Shown: one piece after another, positions 24,292-31,151 of the stretch
Position numbering within the stretch: the first letter of the stretch is position 1
How the letters are laid out: every line of letters starts with the position of its first letter
Assembly (NCBI GenBank): GCA_020627685.1
Contig: JAHDGK010000042.1
Span: forward strand, 1-41,155
Direction of reading: 5' to 3'
DNA from: Granulosicoccus sp.
GTDB taxonomy: Bacteria > Pseudomonadota > Gammaproteobacteria > Granulosicoccales > Granulosicoccaceae
DNA: 41,155 nucleotides
Translations under genes and position numbers: made by a program
The notes under the pieces: generated by a model
Told to the model about the DNA's origin: nothing
Seen by the model: the letters and a program-made list of their open reading frames with translations, nothing else
Database searches by the model: none

Positions 24292-25437
24292 CTACCGGTG
24301 TCGCTTGCGACCCTGACGACGAAGCAACCCTACCACCGCTAAAAGTGGCAATAACAATAAAGTAACGGCACCCGATTTTGATCTAGGTGTGTCGGTGTCC
24401 GGCACTTCATCAGGAACTTCGTCGGGGCCTTGTATCTCTGGCAAACTCAGATTTTCAATCGTGTTGCTTTCCGAACTGGGACTGCCGCCAATCGTCGTTG
24501 ATCCGGACATGGCATAAAAACGCGAATCAACTAATCCGCCTCCCCCGCCATGTCGACCTACCGTCATGGGCGGTAAGGTCTGCCACGAATCCGATTCAAC
24601 ATCGTAGGCCTCTACTACTCGCAAGGCATCATTGCTGGTATTGATCTCACCGCCGGCTACGATGACATAATCATCGTAGGCAACCGTCATAACACCAGCG
24701 CGTCCTGTGGGGATATCTGCACCAGAGGTCCACTGCCCCGACGTAAAGTCGTAAACATCCGTTGCAAGCACCGGATTTGCCGATGGATTAGGCAATCGTG
24801 TTTGACGACCGCCAGCGGCGACTAATCGATCTCCCACCATAACGGCTGAGAAATGATCTCTAGCATTGGGTGCATCTGCCAGTATTGTCCACTCTCCCGT
24901 TGCAGGATCGAATTCATCAAACCATGCCACGGCTCCACCATCGTGCCCTTGAGTATTTCCACCGATCAAATATATTTTTTCATTCCTGACCACGGCAGCG
25001 GCACTGCCTCGAAGTCTTGCCAGCGGTTGACTACCCTCGACCGACCAAGTATTCGTCGTGGTATCGAAGACATGAATTTCGGGGACTAATTGCTCATTCG
25101 GGTAGCAGCACGTAAACGCGCCCACGATGTATATATCATTATCAATGGCAACAGCCTGCATGTGATGTAGCTCCAGCGGCGCGGCTCCTAGATCGTCCCA
25201 TTGCCTGGTATCCGTTGAGTAGCGCTCCACTGAACGGGTTCCACGCCCACCCAGCAAATACAGATAATCACCTACCACGATACCCGTAGCTTCGTGGCGA
25301 GGACTCAACCGAGAGCCGTCGTTACTCGCCTCAAGCTGCCATTGGCTGTTGACGGTAAGCGCAGCGCTGGCCAGAGCTGACACTGTCAGACAAGCTGCAA
25401 GAACGGAATAATTCAGTGTTCGGTAAATTAGTTTCAT
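24292..25437 (-). CDS. Secreted Kelch-repeat protein with C-terminal membrane/sorting tail
   Basis: A 381-residue exported beta-propeller protein. A signal peptide (about residues 1-25, ends in ALASA) precedes at least five Kelch blades with the typical 'YLLGGRG...VERY', 'IYLIGGNTQG', 'LVAAGGRQT' and 'VIVAGGEIN' Gly-Gly strands and WxxLPPM-type turns. The C-terminus has a Pro/Asp/Glu linker (PDEVPDEVPDTDTP), a hydrophobic helix (AVTLLLLPLLAVVGLL) and a basic tail (RRQGRKRHR). That three-part pattern resembles GlyGly-CTERM or similar sorting signals. Some bacterial Kelch proteins such as NanM are sugar mutarotases, but the role here is unknown. It is 58 nt after the DUF5060 gene and 72 nt before fucU. 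Confidence 0.85.
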   Translation of the reverse strand: MKLIYRTLNYSVLAACLTVSALASAALTVNSQWQLEASNDGSRLSPRHEATGIVVGDYLYLLGGRGTRSVERYSTDTRQWDDLGAAPLELHHMQAVAIDNDIYIVGAFTCCYPNEQLVPEIHVFDTTTNTWSVEGSQPLARLRGSAAAVVRNEKIYLIGGNTQGHDGGAVAWFDEFDPATGEWTILADAPNARDHFSAVMVGDRLVAAGGRQTRLPNPSANPVLATDVYDFTSGQWTSGADIPTGRAGVMTVAYDDYVIVAGGEINTSNDALRVVEAYDVESDSWQTLPPMTVGRHGGGGGLVDSRFYAMSGSTTIGGSPSSESNTIENLSLPEIQGPDEVPDEVPDTDTPRSKSGAVTLLLLPLLAVVGLLRRQGRKRHR

Positions 25438-25495
25438 GCCCTGTTAACGGCAAATTCCTAAAATTCCGATGTGACGCCGGTAACAAGGGTGTGGT

Positions 25496-27961
25496 TTAGC
25501 GTGTGACGAGCACCTCGACAATCAAAGTATCGCTCAATGCCTCATTGTCGCTATCGACCGCTATGAAAGTCAGCGTGAACAATCCTATATCGGCTTCCGT
25601 CGGCATCCAGTAGAACGTACGAGAACCATCACCATTGTCGTCAAATCGTGCACCGGCGGGAGGATTTAAAACTCTCAACGCTGGTGGCACCCCGTCTGCG
25701 TCATCTGCTTCTATTCTGTGAACCAGTGTTCGCCCGACCTGAATTACCAGTCCTGGCGTATTGCGGAAGACAGGTGCTGCACTGGCTGTCGGGCGCATTA
25801 TATTTTCTACAGGATTAGCAATAGGGTCCTCTGACGTTCTGCCTAGAACGTTTATTGTCATCGTTTGAGAGTTTCTGACTGAGGAGTCTGTTGCCCGAAT
25901 AGCAATCAACTCAAAACTAACGCTTGCGGGCGCATCGACAGGAACATCCCACTCGATGGCCAACTGACCGTTACCCAGTCCTTGCAGTTGCATCCCCGAC
26001 GGTAGTGAAGCCGCAGTAACACTCGGAGACGTACCGTCAACATCTATTGCATTAAGTGTGATCGAGTAGTTCTGGCCAGCCTGAACAGACGGCGTTGGAA
26101 TATTAGTAAAGCTCGGCTTTTGCGCAACAGGTGAAGTTTCAACACCAGGAGTCTCAATGACTGTTGAATCCATTCGCTTGACCAACACTACCCAATCTTC
26201 GCCTTGCTCTTCGGGTGCAGCTCCCAATGACAATCTTCCATTTGCCGGCAGGTTAACAGCACCATTTGTAAAATTCCCTGTACGCGGATTAAACCAACGC
26301 AGCTGAAAGTTTCCATCTACATTGTCCAAATTCAACCACTCGGCACCATTACTGGCTGGCAGGTAAACCGCATAAATTTCACCGTGTGCGGCGAATACTT
26401 CACCACCGCCGAAGGTATCGTTATCGCCATGGAGCAAGGCATCATCGGGTTCCATTCTCCAGAAGGGAAGCTCTGATTCCATCATCTGTCGCGCAAAGCG
26501 CATTTGATCCCACATGGCTTCCCGAAGCCGGAAATCCCCGGCACTAACATCTCCGCCAATGGGTAATGGGTTATAGCCGAAGTACCACTCAATATTACCG
26601 CCACTGAACAACACATCGTAAAGAATTTCTTTTCGTCTTTCAGCAGTATCAATCGGTGCAAGACCATTGGTGTTTTCATCCATATCGATAACCCAAGGGC
26701 GACCGGCAAGCCGACTATTGCGACGCCACTGTTCGACAAACTGCCCGGCAAACTCCGCGTCATATTGAATAGAAGACGCGCTGTAACGAGAGTCTCCAAC
26801 GATTTCACCGTACCGATAAAATTGGTTGATGTGGGTATGAACAGCAATGGGTTTCGCACTCCAATCAATGGCCTGCAGGTAATCGGAATGCTTGTCTAGT
26901 TCGACGCGAGGAAAATCATTCTCTTCCCCCAGATTCCATTTCACAGCCAGTAGATATCCGAACCGTGCCACCAACTCACGAAAAAACAGCTTACGTTCAA
27001 CACCCAACTCGCCGTTATCAAGCCACTGCTCATTCGCAGTTTCCGTTTCACTCAGTACGATGTTTAATGCAATACCCTGCTCCTGTGCGTGATTTAACAC
27101 AAGATTCCATTGATGCAATTTGCTGATATCGTAGTGCGTCTTATTAAAATGATTGTTCGCTGCACCGACAAACGGATACGTCTCTTGTCCGTCCCCACCC
27201 AGATTCATGGGCAGAAAATAAACTGAATTAACACCTTTCTCACCCAAATAATTCAATGCCCCGATAAGACCACGACTATCAGCTCCGGTTGTTGCGTGAG
27301 TAAACAATGGGTCAGATTCATTCCAGTCACCTCTGTGAGCAGAATAGTCATGAAGGAAGTTTGCCTCCACGCCTCCGTGATCATAAGTACCGTCGATTCC
27401 TGAAAATCCCAATAAGTTTTCCGGACTGTCCGTTCCACCTTTTATCCAGTAAGGACCATCACGAAATTTCAGGTAGTGATCACCTACATATTCCAGTCTG
27501 CCATGTCGTAAAAATTCGGGAGCATCGTTGGACACTGGTGTGATAATGAACGTACCTTCACCCTCGTCAACGATAACCGGGTTACCTGCACCCGAGTCTA
27601 GACTGATGGCAATGTCAGTTCCGGAACGAAGCGAAGCACGGTATCGCCATTGGCCCACCTCATCGGCTGAAAAACGGGCGCGCCATATGCGGCCACTCCC
27701 ATTGCCGCGGCCATCTCCAGCGAAGAAGCCCGGCACCGTCGTTACGGCACCACTCGGTGCAGTTAATTCAACATTTAAGCGGTAGTCCAAAAACGGATTT
27801 ATTGATGTATCCGTTTCAGACGCTGCAGGACCTATGAAGTCGATTTCAACCGGATGCCATTTAGCAAGCTCACCACTAACAACAGCTGCAGATGACAACT
27901 GCCAAACAGTGCTAAAAGCTAATGCACACGCAAACTGCATCAGCCGGATACATGGGATCAT
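25496..27961 (-). CDS. Secreted DUF5060 glycoside-hydrolase-like protein with Ig-like tail
   Basis: Large exported protein, 821 residues from the preferred ATG at 27961. The reading frame extends 24 codons further, but the signal peptide MIPCIRLMQFACALAFSTVW begins here. Domains, by eye: a DUF5060 beta-sandwich (about residues 30-130, 'WHPVEIDF', 'RIWRARFSADEVGQWRYR'), then a TIM-barrel-like region (about 150-470). The barrel contains candidate acid residues in KWNLGEENDF and VIDMDENTNG, and WYFGYNPLP. A small beta domain like the putative collagen-binding domain of DUF4038 proteins follows (about 510-600, WFNPRTGNF). Two cadherin/Ig-like domains end the protein. Activity on an extracellular polysaccharide is inferred. 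The substrate is unknown. Confidence 0.8.
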   Translation of the reverse strand: MIPCIRLMQFACALAFSTVWQLSSAAVVSGELAKWHPVEIDFIGPAASETDTSINPFLDYRLNVELTAPSGAVTTVPGFFAGDGRGNGSGRIWRARFSADEVGQWRYRASLRSGTDIAISLDSGAGNPVIVDEGEGTFIITPVSNDAPEFLRHGRLEYVGDHYLKFRDGPYWIKGGTDSPENLLGFSGIDGTYDHGGVEANFLHDYSAHRGDWNESDPLFTHATTGADSRGLIGALNYLGEKGVNSVYFLPMNLGGDGQETYPFVGAANNHFNKTHYDISKLHQWNLVLNHAQEQGIALNIVLSETETANEQWLDNGELGVERKLFFRELVARFGYLLAVKWNLGEENDFPRVELDKHSDYLQAIDWSAKPIAVHTHINQFYRYGEIVGDSRYSASSIQYDAEFAGQFVEQWRRNSRLAGRPWVIDMDENTNGLAPIDTAERRKEILYDVLFSGGNIEWYFGYNPLPIGGDVSAGDFRLREAMWDQMRFARQMMESELPFWRMEPDDALLHGDNDTFGGGEVFAAHGEIYAVYLPASNGAEWLNLDNVDGNFQLRWFNPRTGNFTNGAVNLPANGRLSLGAAPEEQGEDWVVLVKRMDSTVIETPGVETSPVAQKPSFTNIPTPSVQAGQNYSITLNAIDVDGTSPSVTAASLPSGMQLQGLGNGQLAIEWDVPVDAPASVSFELIAIRATDSSVRNSQTMTINVLGRTSEDPIANPVENIMRPTASAAPVFRNTPGLVIQVGRTLVHRIEADDADGVPPALRVLNPPAGARFDDNGDGSRTFYWMPTEADIGLFTLTFIAVDSDNEALSDTLIVEVLVTR

Positions 27962-28049
27962 AGGGGGTCCGGAAAAAGACAAATAACTAGGCTCAGAGTA
28001 TGCAGGGCCCCCACAAACCGAGTACGGCACCACTTATCACTCTGCCCAC

Positions 28050-28065
28050 CGTTAATCAATTAACG
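28050..28065. repeat. 16-bp palindrome in divergent intergenic region
   Basis: CGTTAAT-CA-ATTAACG lies upstream of the DUF5060 gene, within the 194-bp (or longer) divergent region shared with the exostosin-like gene. The size and symmetry suit a dimeric repressor operator. No regulator gene is adjacent. The rest of the region is A/T-rich with no clear promoter. Confidence 0.4.
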
Positions 28066-28227
28066 TGAAGTCGATCAAGTGCAAAGACTGCATAAAACCG
28101 TTCACAAATCGTTAAATTTAGACAGGTTTCACACTAGAGATTTTCTAAAAGGCCAAGTCCTCTTATACCGCTTGATATGGACATTATTTAATTAACTTGT
28201 TACCGAATGCGTCGATAAGAAATTATC

Positions 28228-29178
28228 ATGAAACTATTTTTGACATCGGCATATAGCACGCACACGGGCTTAGATATTCTTCGCCAATATGCAGCTTTGG
28301 ACTCGGTGGGAAATCATTTCATTAGCGATAACCCTGAAGAGGCCGATGCCATTTTATTTGTTGAGAACACACAGTTCGACGACATTTTATTCAGAACGCT
28401 ACTGAACCACGAGCTTATACAGAAGTACCCTGAAAAGGTCTTCATGTATAACGAAATGGATCGTCCATGGGATGTACTGCCGGGACTGTATTGCTGCATG
28501 ACCCGCAAGCATATTAATACAGACAGACACGCTGCCTTCGCGTACTTGTACACTCCTAATCCATACATCAAAGATATTCACACGAACGATATCGACAAGC
28601 AGTGGTTGTATTCGTTTATGGGCAGCATGAGTCACTCTTGCCGCCGTACCGTTATGAAATTGGACCACCCAGACGGGTATGTGCAAGACACCTCTGAATT
28701 CAATGTTTGGCGTAGCGATGATGCGGAGCTTGCAGCACGTGGTCAATCTTATGCCCACAATTTAGCGGAAAGCCAGTTTATCTTGTGCCCTAGAGGTATC
28801 GGATGCTCATCTATTCGTTTGTATGAAACACTAGAAGCCGGACGAGTACCGGTCATTATTTCAGACGACTGGGTACCACCTGCAGAAACAGACTGGAGCT
28901 TTGCTATAAAGGTAGAAGAGCGTCGAATCACTTCTATACCCGGCATATTGAAAAGTCTGCAAGGTGAATCGGAAGAGCGTGGATATGCCGCCAGGCAAGC
29001 ATGGGAGGCGAGTTATGCGCCGCAGACTCTGTTCAATACTGTCGGTGAATCTTTAAGCGTATTGGTTGAAGGCGAGGCCTATCGACACAAAAGCTCACAG
29101 GGTGCAAGCTTACAAAAGTGGATTACAACCGGCGGACTTTTCACACGAAGTGCGGCGCAGCGATTGCGCGGCGGCTGA
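28228..29178 (+). CDS. Exostosin-family (GT47-like) glycosyltransferase
   Basis: A 316-residue cytoplasmic or peripheral glycosyltransferase-like protein with no signal peptide. The nucleotide-sugar-binding block FILCPRGIGCSSIRLYETLE, followed by AGRVPVIISDDWVPP, is the exostosin/GT47 C-terminal signature, with the conserved acidic residues and proline. GT47 enzymes transfer uronic acids, pentoses or hexosamines from NDP-sugars, mostly in eukaryotes, with scattered bacterial members in surface polysaccharide loci. It stands alone on the plus strand and converges on the nucleotidyltransferase gene 42 nt away. Its donor could be the NDP-sugar made by that pair, but this is inference. Confidence 0.82.
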   Translation: MKLFLTSAYSTHTGLDILRQYAALDSVGNHFISDNPEEADAILFVENTQFDDILFRTLLNHELIQKYPEKVFMYNEMDRPWDVLPGLYCCMTRKHINTDRHAAFAYLYTPNPYIKDIHTNDIDKQWLYSFMGSMSHSCRRTVMKLDHPDGYVQDTSEFNVWRSDDAELAARGQSYAHNLAESQFILCPRGIGCSSIRLYETLEAGRVPVIISDDWVPPAETDWSFAIKVEERRITSIPGILKSLQGESEERGYAARQAWEASYAPQTLFNTVGESLSVLVEGEAYRHKSSQGASLQKWITTGGLFTRSAAQRLRGG

Positions 29179-29220: not shown

Positions 29221-29949
29221 CTAACCCTTTTGCGGCACCTGCCATTCATCCGGTGCGCTTTGTATTAATCCTTTTGCTGAACCACCCTTTGCCAACCACT
29301 CATTGATAGCATATTGAATCTCCGTCTCGCCCCGTGGGGATAACGGAACTGCCGCGATAAAAGGTGCAAGAGATGAAGGCAATACAAATGTCAGGTTTGC
29401 ACCTATCGAACTTGGAGCGGTCCCCGGAGCAGGCTTTTCCACAATTTCTTCAATAGTGTCGTTATCACCAAATCGTACGCTTGAACGGCCAGCCAATTCA
29501 CTCTCTGGCAATGCTTTCAAACTTACCGTTAATTCAGCCGTATGATTCGCATGAAACTGTATTAGATCGCTAAAGAAACTTTCAGGTACGAGATAATCTG
29601 TAGCGCTTAAAATGTAAGGCTCTTGCACGAAGTCTGGATACGCTTCAATGACGCATTGCATGGCATTAGCGGTACCCTTTAAAGCGGGTTGTCTAACGCA
29701 GCGTACGAGCTGCTCGGAAACTTCTGCTCGACGCTTTGCATACTCTTCTACTTGCTCATGCAAATGATGAGTTACTAGCACAACGTCATCGATCCCTGCT
29801 TGTTGCAGAGAGTCCATGAGGTAGTCCAATGTCGGTTTCCCCAGGTGCTTCAGCAGCGGTTTAGGGGTATTGTCAGTGTGTGGTCTTAATCGTTTACCAC
29901 GACCCGCCGCGAGAAGTACAGCTCGCCTTACTACTGTTTTCCCGGTCAC
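29221..29949 (-). CDS. Sugar-1-phosphate nucleotidyltransferase
   Basis: A 242-residue GT-A-like nucleotidyltransferase that should form an NDP-sugar and pyrophosphate from NTP and a sugar-1-phosphate. The signature AVLLAAGRGKRLRPHTDNTP followed by KPLL (residues 10-33) binds the nucleotide. Asp in SATDYLVP is a likely metal ligand, and the 'IEEIVEKP' block is standard. There is no left-handed beta-helix acyltransferase extension. The ATG overlaps the stop of the upstream GHMP kinase by 4 nt, so the two are translationally coupled. It probably acts on the kinase product. MurU-like or HddC/RmlA-like relatives are alternatives for its exact family. Confidence 0.88.
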   Translation of the reverse strand: MTGKTVVRRAVLLAAGRGKRLRPHTDNTPKPLLKHLGKPTLDYLMDSLQQAGIDDVVLVTHHLHEQVEEYAKRRAEVSEQLVRCVRQPALKGTANAMQCVIEAYPDFVQEPYILSATDYLVPESFFSDLIQFHANHTAELTVSLKALPESELAGRSSVRFGDNDTIEEIVEKPAPGTAPSSIGANLTFVLPSSLAPFIAAVPLSPRGETEIQYAINEWLAKGGSAKGLIQSAPDEWQVPQKG

Positions 29950-31151
29950 GGTTGAATCACCCGCACAGTGCTTTCAGATTCAGCAATTAGCACCTTTGCA
30001 ATTCCTTGTAGATCCGGATAACGCTCTAGGTATTTTGAAAGCAGGGTATCGGCAATAGCCTCGACCTTGTCTGAATCTACAAGCATAAACAAACAGCCGC
30101 CATATCCCCCGCCACTAAACCGATTTCCATGGACACCTGGAATGTCTCTAGCAATTTCGTGTAAAGCAATGAGCCATTCACTTCCACTTTCATAGTGATG
30201 AATAGAGCTCTGACAGGATTCATTCATCAGTTGACCAAAGCGGCTGATATTTCCTTCCTGCCAAGCCTTTGCTCCCTCCTCTACCCGTGCCATTTCACTA
30301 AACACATGCTTAGCCCTTCCGGCGATAGGCTCAGGTAGTTCATCAAGCATGACTTGCTCGCGGCATTGAGCGGGAACCTCACCTAAATGCTTTGCGCCAG
30401 GGTGAAGTATTTCAGCTGCTTGCTGACATTCAGCAACCCGAGTGTTGAATGGAGACCCGCCCAGATCTCTGGATACACCGGAGTAGCACATGAGAAATCT
30501 ATACCGGTCCGACAGGGAGGGATCTTTGATGGACAACGCGGTGACATTCTCTACATCAAGTTTAACGATATGCTCTTGTTGCCCGAAAACAATAGACATC
30601 TGATCTTGAATACCATTGTTCAAGCCCCGGTAATCATTCTCGACACGTCGCGACAACTCAACCAGCTCCTCACTGGATAGATCGATATTGTTAACGTCGG
30701 CTAGTGCAGATAGGTAGGCAAGAATAACCGATGCAGATGAGCTGAGCCCGCAACTGACCATGGTACCGAAGACAACCGCTTCAACACCTGTCTCGAGGGT
30801 TGAAAAATCATAAAGAGCCGCACTTGATGCACGCGCCATAGAATCCCAACCAAATTCGTCTTCCGTTTCAACAGGCAGGAACCGCGTATGCTGCCAATCA
30901 CCATTATTGATTCGCGCATAGACCACTGAGGCAAGCTCACGTGCCGGCCAGAAACACAGCACCGTGTACTGGTTTAAACAACGCGCGAGTACTTGACCAC
31001 CCTGATGGTCGATGTGAGCACCAAGAGGATTGAATCGATAGGGAGAAACAACGACTTTAGGCTGGCTTTGCCTGCCGGTCAGTTGGCGCGCTTGATTAAC
31101 ACAGTCATCGATCAACTCCCTGATCGGCTGAGCATCCAGACTGCTTGTCAT
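29946..31151 (-). CDS. GHMP sugar kinase, galacturonokinase-like
   Basis: A 401-residue anomeric sugar kinase of the galactokinase branch. Motif 1 reads VVVSPYRFNPLGAHIDHQGG (33-52), where galactokinases have R-x-N-L-I-G-E-H-x-D-Y. The Glu that contacts the galactose hydroxyls is Ala45. Motif 2 is GLSSSAS (135-141), the catalytic Asp is in GIQDQ (D183), and motif 3 is SGGGYGGC (346-353). From memory, the Ala and the blocks RVAECQQAA, SEMARVEEG and GVHGNRFSGGG closely follow plant galacturonokinase. It should phosphorylate C1 of a free sugar, plausibly D-galacturonate or another uronate. It is coupled to a nucleotidyltransferase and ends 107 nt from pilU. Substrate not proven. Confidence 0.85.
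   Translation of the reverse strand: MTSSLDAQPIRELIDDCVNQARQLTGRQSQPKVVVSPYRFNPLGAHIDHQGGQVLARCLNQYTVLCFWPARELASVVYARINNGDWQHTRFLPVETEDEFGWDSMARASSAALYDFSTLETGVEAVVFGTMVSCGLSSSASVILAYLSALADVNNIDLSSEELVELSRRVENDYRGLNNGIQDQMSIVFGQQEHIVKLDVENVTALSIKDPSLSDRYRFLMCYSGVSRDLGGSPFNTRVAECQQAAEILHPGAKHLGEVPAQCREQVMLDELPEPIAGRAKHVFSEMARVEEGAKAWQEGNISRFGQLMNESCQSSIHHYESGSEWLIALHEIARDIPGVHGNRFSGGGYGGCLFMLVDSDKVEAIADTLLSKYLERYPDLQGIAKVLIAESESTVRVIQP

Follow-up and report, generated by a model that had tools for sequence, protein, structure and literature searches.

The window analyzed here, a stretch of 41,155 nucleotides from Granulosicoccus sp. (contig JAHDGK010000042.1, assembly GCA_020627685.1), contains two genes on the reverse strand that appear suited to activating a free sugar acid, one for a galacturonokinase-like kinase of the GHMP family and one, directly downstream, for a small sugar-1-phosphate nucleotidylyltransferase (Table 1). 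The genome comprises 4.93 Mb and is 99.5% complete. The initial annotation had recognized both ORFs, the sequence PLGAHIDHQGG with alanine in the position of the galactokinase glutamate, and the start of the transferase gene inside the kinase stop codon, and all of these observations hold up: the motif PYRFNPLGAHIDHQGG is present with Ala45 occupying the Glu position of GEHTDY, and the last two bases of the transferase GTG are the first two of the kinase TGA stop, an arrangement that would allow translational coupling.

Table 1. Features of the kinase-transferase locus and its neighbors; positions refer to the window.
Feature	Position	Strand	Evidence or remark
DUF5060/Collagen_bind_2 glycoside-hydrolase-like protein, syntenic neighbor	25496..28033	-	PF16586, PF12904
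GT47/exostosin-domain protein, convergent neighbor	28228..29178	+	PF03016 1.7e-16
Sugar-1-phosphate nucleotidylyltransferase, 242 aa, GTG start	29221..29949	-	PF00483 1.1e-24, AF2 pLDDT 95.2, fold
Nucleotidyltransferase signature LLAAGRGKRLRPHT	29875..29916	-	L13, A15, G16, R20, P23 invariant in 54 rows
4-nt GTGA overlap, transferase start within kinase stop codon	29946..29949	-	putative translational coupling
GHMP-family anomeric sugar kinase, galacturonokinase-like, 401 aa	29946..31151	-	Pfam, AF2 model, fold comparison
Asp183, catalytic-base position of galactokinases	30603..30605	-	D in 78/78 family rows, 54/54 galactokinases
GHMP ATP-binding motif GLSSSAS, residues 135-141	30729..30749	-	G135, S138, S139 invariant, 78 rows
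Sugar-site motif P37-YRFNPLGAHIDHQG-G52, Ala45 replacing galactokinase Glu	30996..31043	-	A45 in 77/78 family rows

In the kinase, the Pfam domains GHMP_kinases_N (PF00288), GalKase_gal_bdg (PF10509) and GHMP_kinases_C (PF08544) are all found above their cut-offs, and in VIA-align the AF2 model (pLDDT 95.0) matches human galactokinase 6zfh_E with a Z of 49.8 and an rmsd of 2.1 over 379 residues and the GalNAc kinase 2a2c with a Z of 45.2. The GHMP/galactokinase fold and the ATP motif that a galacturonokinase should have are thus both in place, and Asp183 presumably acts as the catalytic base, a role known from galactokinase structures. The sugar motif GEHTDYN of galactokinases is not found; the kinase reads GAHIDHQ instead. 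Its nearest named relative (71%) stems from a MAG of an uncultured Granulosicoccus.

The protein scores below the cut-offs of all five galactokinase models matched in NCBIfam (175.2 bits with a cut-off of 385, 167 with 226.65 for TIGR00131, 162.8 with 443, 162 with 499 and 122.4 with 509), and it resides outside the galactokinase clade in two trees. The first, with 60 rows (the window protein, 35 of 77 family loci, 23 of 54 galactokinases and a provisional Arabidopsis galacturonokinase sequence that is no database copy), splits the family from the galactokinases at 100/100, while a quick tree of 132 rows (78 family members and 54 galactokinases, free of the provisional sequence) gives the same split with an SH-aLRT of 100. 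As both trees lack an outside root and other GHMP families, they show the groups to be separate without giving a direction. A placement firmly inside the galactokinases, which the initial annotation had named as a possible refutation, is not observed, and we reject an assignment as galactokinase proper in view of the sub-threshold NCBIfam scores together with the separate clade in both trees. A second, galactokinase-like gene of 403 aa with the motif GEYTDF is located elsewhere in the genome, flanked by ORFs for a GH36-type alpha-galactosidase and galT (names given by eye, as were those of pilT/pilU, YggS, ProC, transaldolase and LarA-like genes).

The family alignment holds 78 rows, with loci L075 and L085 at contig ends omitted, and P37, R39, G44, H46, D48, H49, Q50, G51 and G52 are invariant throughout, a conservation that is owed in part to selection, as the retrieval patterns included GAH[IV]DHQG. 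Subject to that share of selection, conservation throughout the family rules out a chance motif. Position 45 is A in 77 of the 78 rows, whereas 52 of 54 galactokinases have E there, and seven columns are at least 85% conserved within each group yet different between the two: P42, A45, H49, Q50, V239, W297 and F345, of which A45, H49 and Q50 fall within a search pattern and the other four do not. No family row departs from R39, H46, D48 and D183, which correspond to sugar-binding and catalytic residues in galactokinases. The galactokinase Glu at the position of Ala45 presumably contacts the 6-hydroxyl group, and the loss of its negative charge would suit a carboxylate at C6. Phe235 of the window kinase, at a position held by Tyr in 53 of 54 galactokinases, is no mark of the family because the members are mixed there (F in 44, Y in 34).

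The transferase combines the NTP_transferase domain (PF00483), detected above its Pfam cut-off, with the GxGxRL...PK signature, and G16, R20, P23, K30 and D118 are invariant in an alignment from which L105, L082, L135 and loci with uncallable transferase starts were excluded. In VIA-align, several UDP-glucose pyrophosphorylases tie as the best match to its model, 5i1f heading the list with a Z of 28.7 and an rmsd of 2.6 across 229 residues. Of the 42 NCBIfam families with a match, 25 were listed, and the transferase falls short of the threshold for every one of these, including GalU, MurU and RmlA-long; the NCBIfam models shown give a curated name to neither protein of the pair. When the window genome was searched with the transferase at 1e-8, no other match appeared.

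The two genes lie side by side in most relatives. A nucleotidyltransferase gene lies directly downstream of the kinase gene in 67 of 76 testable loci, in which 300 nt or more of contig remained; three of 79 were set aside for ending within 300 nt of the kinase. It was not found there in the remaining nine, namely two Dadabacteria, four Thermodesulfobacteriota/'Deltaproteobacteria', one Myxococcales, one Clostridiales and one Symploca record. Among the 56 kinase-transferase pairs with script-callable starts, the overlap of four nucleotides recurs in 40. Two transferase types, only about 20-30% identical to each other, fill the same slot, with the window type present in Granulosicoccaceae and Chloroflexota, and the occurrence of such divergent types in the same place points to selection for both activities together.

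When 84,980 species were scanned, each represented by a single genome, 79 kinase loci emerged among the best 80 of 102 relatives. Judged by record titles, the family spans at least nine bacterial phyla, a lower bound given that it is based on the best 80 of 102 relatives: Pseudomonadota (Granulosicoccaceae and a Bugula symbiont), Chloroflexota, Thermodesulfobacteriota or Dadabacteria, Myxococcota, Bacillota, Spirochaetota, Acidobacteriota and, with one MAG each, Planctomycetota and cyanobacteria. Most family records are MAGs, and single cases may therefore be misbinned. Within the window's own taxonomic family, 23 of 48 genomes, that of the window among them, contain a match that reaches at least 1e-40. 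Among 299 genomes spread across the phylum, 29 yield one at 1e-20; outside the window genome the motif could be read in 27 of 28 loci, and all 27 are of the galactokinase type, one of them with GDHTDY. In 398 genomes of the phylum of locus L133, L170-L172, the first being the L133 gene itself, score at least 620 bits and stand clear of the rest at no more than 273 bits; each of the 27 further loci retrieved from these genomes has a motif of the galactokinase type, in one case GGHTDY. In two further loci, L200 (only 5.2 kb) and L201, the search recovered the transferase and no context gene. Matches in phage records number 11, at 22.6-29.2% identity, and those in plasmid records 78, the first listed being Lactococcus garvieae plasmid CP066001 (L143), where the pair is annotated as two hypothetical proteins.

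Some relatives feature gene arrangements that bear on the question of which sugar is activated. We compared 80 loci (the 79 and L143) with 16 neighbor proteins and found informative neighbors in 13, four with genes for hexuronate catabolism, five with only a cupin or TRAP/Tct genes and four with a dehydrogenase plus an epimerase. The other 67, some of them short contigs, show no clear hexuronate link, and some hold only a generic SDR, a GH4 gene, or an epimerase or TRAP DctM gene located at a distance. A cupin gene just upstream of the kinase (assigned to Cupin_2 by Pfam and unmatched in NCBIfam) occurs in five of the 80 loci, Tct genes in three and TRAP DctP in four. The richest case is L094 from Desulfobacterales, where cupin, kinase and transferase are accompanied by Eda (KDPG aldolase), a PfkB kinase, TRAP DctP/Q/M, an SDR and, at the border of the stretch examined, uronate isomerase. 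The SDR is 65% identical to that of L128, a locus that also has the cupin; the L128 SDR has D-mannonate oxidoreductase as its best NCBIfam match (247.9 bits with a cut-off of 281). In L108 and L091, uronate isomerase is encoded upstream and Tct transporters are present as well, the L091 isomerase being a piece of 56 residues at an assembly gap, and L093 combines cupin and Tct, L110 has the cupin only and L098, L116 and L121 contain TRAP genes. In L094 and L108, the start of the uronate isomerase gene uxaC is no more than about 10.5 kb from the kinase. UxaC is encoded in 15 of the 28 locus genomes searched (28 of 79), and a UxaC neighbor within about 11 kb in three of them greatly exceeds the some 0.4% per genome expected by chance, by our own reckoning of 22 kb in about 5 Mb.

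A different context is met in L114, L133, L135 and L143, where a UDP-glucose/GDP-mannose-dehydrogenase family gene and an epimerase gene reside within 2.5 kb of the kinase, the L135 dehydrogenase being only 31% identical to that of L114. The best match by far for the epimerases of L114 and L143 is 5u4q, titled dTDP-glucose 4,6-dehydratase, followed at 1e-38 or better by WbgU entries and 6zl6, which we take to be the Bacillus UDP-GlcA 4-epimerase. The epimerases of L114, L133 and L143 fall below the cut-offs of all NCBIfam models shown; from sequence features, we assume them to be UDP-GlcA 4-epimerases. A match of at least 55% to the L114 epimerase is present in eight of 12 such genomes, that of L114 included. 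Two unlike contexts, catabolism on the one hand and synthesis of nucleotide-activated uronates on the other, thus both name hexuronates.

Among the loci of the Granulosicoccaceae type, counted as 18 distinct ones since L073 repeats L140, the pair adjoins pilU/pilT in 13, and in five of these (five of the 18 compared), all close relatives of the window, genes for the GT47 and DUF5060 proteins stand beside it. A clear hexuronate neighbor is absent from the Granulosicoccaceae loci examined, L064 and L067 having nothing beyond a match to TRAP DctM at a distance of over 6 kb. Neither UxaC nor a GH28 polygalacturonase nor a PF05426 alginate lyase was detected when the window genome was searched, and free galacturonate therefore has no evident source there; recycling of the organism's own glycans or uptake of the monomer would fit. 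Bacteria usually obtain UDP-galacturonate by oxidation of UDP-glucose followed by 4-epimerization. As the window genome encodes an epimerase sharing 56% identity with the L114 enzyme, adjoining a UDP-glucose/GDP-mannose-dehydrogenase family gene, UDP-galacturonate is plausibly a native metabolite of this organism. Granulosicoccus coccoides was isolated from seagrass leaves, as indicated by a reference title in PMC9238374.

Galacturonokinase (GalAK) is an enzyme known from plants, and its founding paper is reportedly that of Yang et al. from 2009. According to PMC8636097, Arabidopsis has one GalAK gene, At3g10700, and the activity was confirmed by NMR. In all our comparisons, GalAK is represented by a provisional Arabidopsis sequence and not by a database copy. 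This provisional sequence is 36% identical to the window kinase and 51% identical over 398 residues to the Planctomycetota protein L106. Scores against it range from 184 to 377 bits for the 78 family rows and from 74 to 135 bits for the 27 of 54 galactokinases taken into the comparison. It carries the family residue at seven of seven discriminating columns and is placed inside the kinase family in the 60-row tree, grouping with L106 at 100/99. It is unlikely that an erroneous sequence would match an unseen protein at 51%, but we regard the plant link as a lead. Whether the overlapping genes form a bacteria-wide, unrecognized module for galacturonate salvage, leading from the free acid via galacturonate-1-phosphate to NDP-galacturonate, is in our judgement evenly balanced; such a module would feed surface-glycan synthesis in some lineages and adjoin genes for uronate catabolism in others, and plant GalAK would be a branch of the bacterial family, nearest here to the Planctomycetota protein and acquired without the transferase.

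For the pair itself, we consider it fairly probable that it serves to salvage a hexuronic acid in its free form, with D-galacturonate as the best candidate, by means of an anomeric kinase and a sugar-1-phosphate nucleotidylyltransferase that probably forms a UDP-sugar. A kinase-transferase route, possibly for galacturonate, had already been suggested in the initial annotation and gains support from the hexuronate context of relatives. A hexuronate is the likely substrate, and from the likeness to galactokinases and to GalAK we infer galacturonate rather than glucuronate. Using ATP, the kinase would phosphorylate the anomeric hydroxyl group to give galacturonate-1-phosphate, relying on its galactokinase fold and the catalytic Asp, and the change from Glu to Ala in the pocket would remove a negative charge where the carboxylate of the substrate would sit. 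The nucleotidylyltransferase would then join galacturonate-1-phosphate and a nucleoside triphosphate, probably UTP, to UDP-galacturonate with release of pyrophosphate. The product would presumably enter a glycan, possibly through the neighboring GT47 protein, although naming this protein as the user is speculative.

We regard it as unlikely that the pair acts on D-glucuronate, or on both uronates, and provides UDP-glucuronate. The neighbor genes would fit either acid, UxaC acting on galacturonate and glucuronate alike, and a UDP-glucose dehydrogenase would make UDP-glucuronate. The closest published pairing found is a glucuronokinase-nucleotidyltransferase fusion from zebrafish (PMC3938481). 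Galacturonate is favored, in a comparison drawn with galactokinases, by the close relation of the window kinase to these in fold and motif order and by the position of the provisional GalAK inside the kinase family. In PMC3938481, Arabidopsis GalAK is called very diverse in sequence despite a substrate highly similar to glucuronate.

Quite unlikely in our view is that the kinase is a galactokinase that has diverged, or a C1-kinase of broad range, acting on neutral sugars of galacto configuration such as galactose, GalNAc, L-arabinose or fucose, with the transferase making the matching NDP-sugar. Such an enzyme would explain the close structural match to both human galactokinase and GalNAc kinase and the retention of R39, H46, D48 and D183. 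It is harder to reconcile with the separate clade, the replacement of the pocket Glu by Ala, the scores below all galactokinase cut-offs, the separate galK-like gene in the genome and the hexuronate neighbors in some relatives. That the pair catalyzes a biosynthetic step towards a modified sugar acid or amino sugar of surface glycans instead of plain galacturonate salvage, as the Butyrivibrio and Spirochaetales loci might suggest (in Butyrivibrio L109 the pair is surrounded by PseB-like, DegT and GNAT genes, and in L135 the transferase is fused to a DegT aminotransferase), is highly improbable, with a DegT gene in just three of 80 loci (L109, L135 and, remotely, L080) and with dehydrogenase and epimerase beside the kinase in L135 as well, although the context of L109 indicates that parts of the kinase family may act on another sugar.

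If the pair does serve galacturonate salvage, a cell could reuse galacturonate derived from pectin or capsules directly in its glycans, in competition with catabolism. A name would be available for a family that curated models place only near galactokinases, a bacterial origin of the plant enzyme would become testable, and small enzymes for making UDP-galacturonate would be at hand. The literature searched, mostly open-access and in part seen as excerpts, yielded no report of a bacterial galacturonokinase, the papers on 'galacturonokinase' found there all dealing with plants or animals by title.

Several known systems resemble the pair in part. Galactokinase GalK of the Leloir pathway has the fold and the catalytic residues in common with the window kinase, which differs by Ala in place of Glu, by His-Gln in place of Tyr-Asn after the HxD motif and by its separate clade; the partner of GalK is galT, that of the window kinase a nucleotidyltransferase. 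AmgK and MurU work like the proposed pair, an anomeric kinase being followed by a small nucleotidyltransferase that yields a UDP-sugar, but AmgK, unlike the window kinase, is not known as a GHMP kinase. Membership of the window transferase in the MurU family is ruled out by a score of 67.4 bits with NF045761, the cut-off being 250. The physiological role of AmgK-MurU is the recycling of cell-wall sugars (PMC5371407). FKP likewise unites a GHMP kinase and a pyrophosphorylase for salvage of a free sugar, but it is a single fused protein and uses L-fucose and GTP (PMC6468028 and PMC11982464), and its kinase is the weaker fold match (9iip, Z 30.5, rmsd 2.6 over 310 residues). In zebrafish DrGKUP, a GHMP uronate kinase is joined to a nucleotidyltransferase of bacterial type; in contrast to the window pair, this animal protein is fused with the transferase first and is specific for glucuronate, and the standard assay revealed no pyrophosphorylase activity (PMC3938481). 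Plant GalAK, as represented by the provisional sequence, would be a GHMP kinase with the same motif and the seven discriminating residues. Plants make UDP-galacturonate via a general UDP-sugar pyrophosphorylase (PMC8636097 and PMC6329318), whereas the bacterial kinase is paired with a small nucleotidyltransferase gene of its own. The pair from Granulosicoccus would thus represent a bacterial variant of the plant enzyme with a dedicated partner.

Beside the kinase-transferase pair, the genes for the GT47/exostosin protein and the DUF5060/Collagen_bind_2 protein hold their position in five Granulosicoccus-type genomes, and a kelch protein is likewise kept in place in four of the five. These neighbours and the pair look as if they made up a single carbohydrate cassette.

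In one Butyrivibrio locus, the pair is surrounded by PseB-like, DegT aminotransferase and GNAT genes, hinting at a different end product for this pair. A DegT aminotransferase domain is fused to the transferase in a Spirochaetales MAG. The kinase on Lactococcus garvieae plasmid CP066001 resides within a capsule-type cluster and is annotated as two hypothetical proteins. At L091, a locus from another record, the N-terminus of uronate isomerase continues across a masked stretch into pyruvate phosphate dikinase, a run-through that is probably a scaffold join.

Coordinates of the features discussed
Feature	Locus	Positions
Neighbours of the pair	window	24292-29178
Butyrivibrio pair region	L109	7607-12472
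DegT-transferase fusion	L135	11148-13148
L. garvieae kinase	L143	7995-9171
Uronate isomerase run-through	L091	6953-9274
Planctomycetota protein	L106	2684-3961

The galactokinase-like gene of the window's own genome, located on another contig (L033, G000:C18), encodes GEYTDF in place of GEHTDY. Among the rows compared, the Planctomycetota protein is closest to a presumed plant (Arabidopsis) galacturonokinase sequence (51%).
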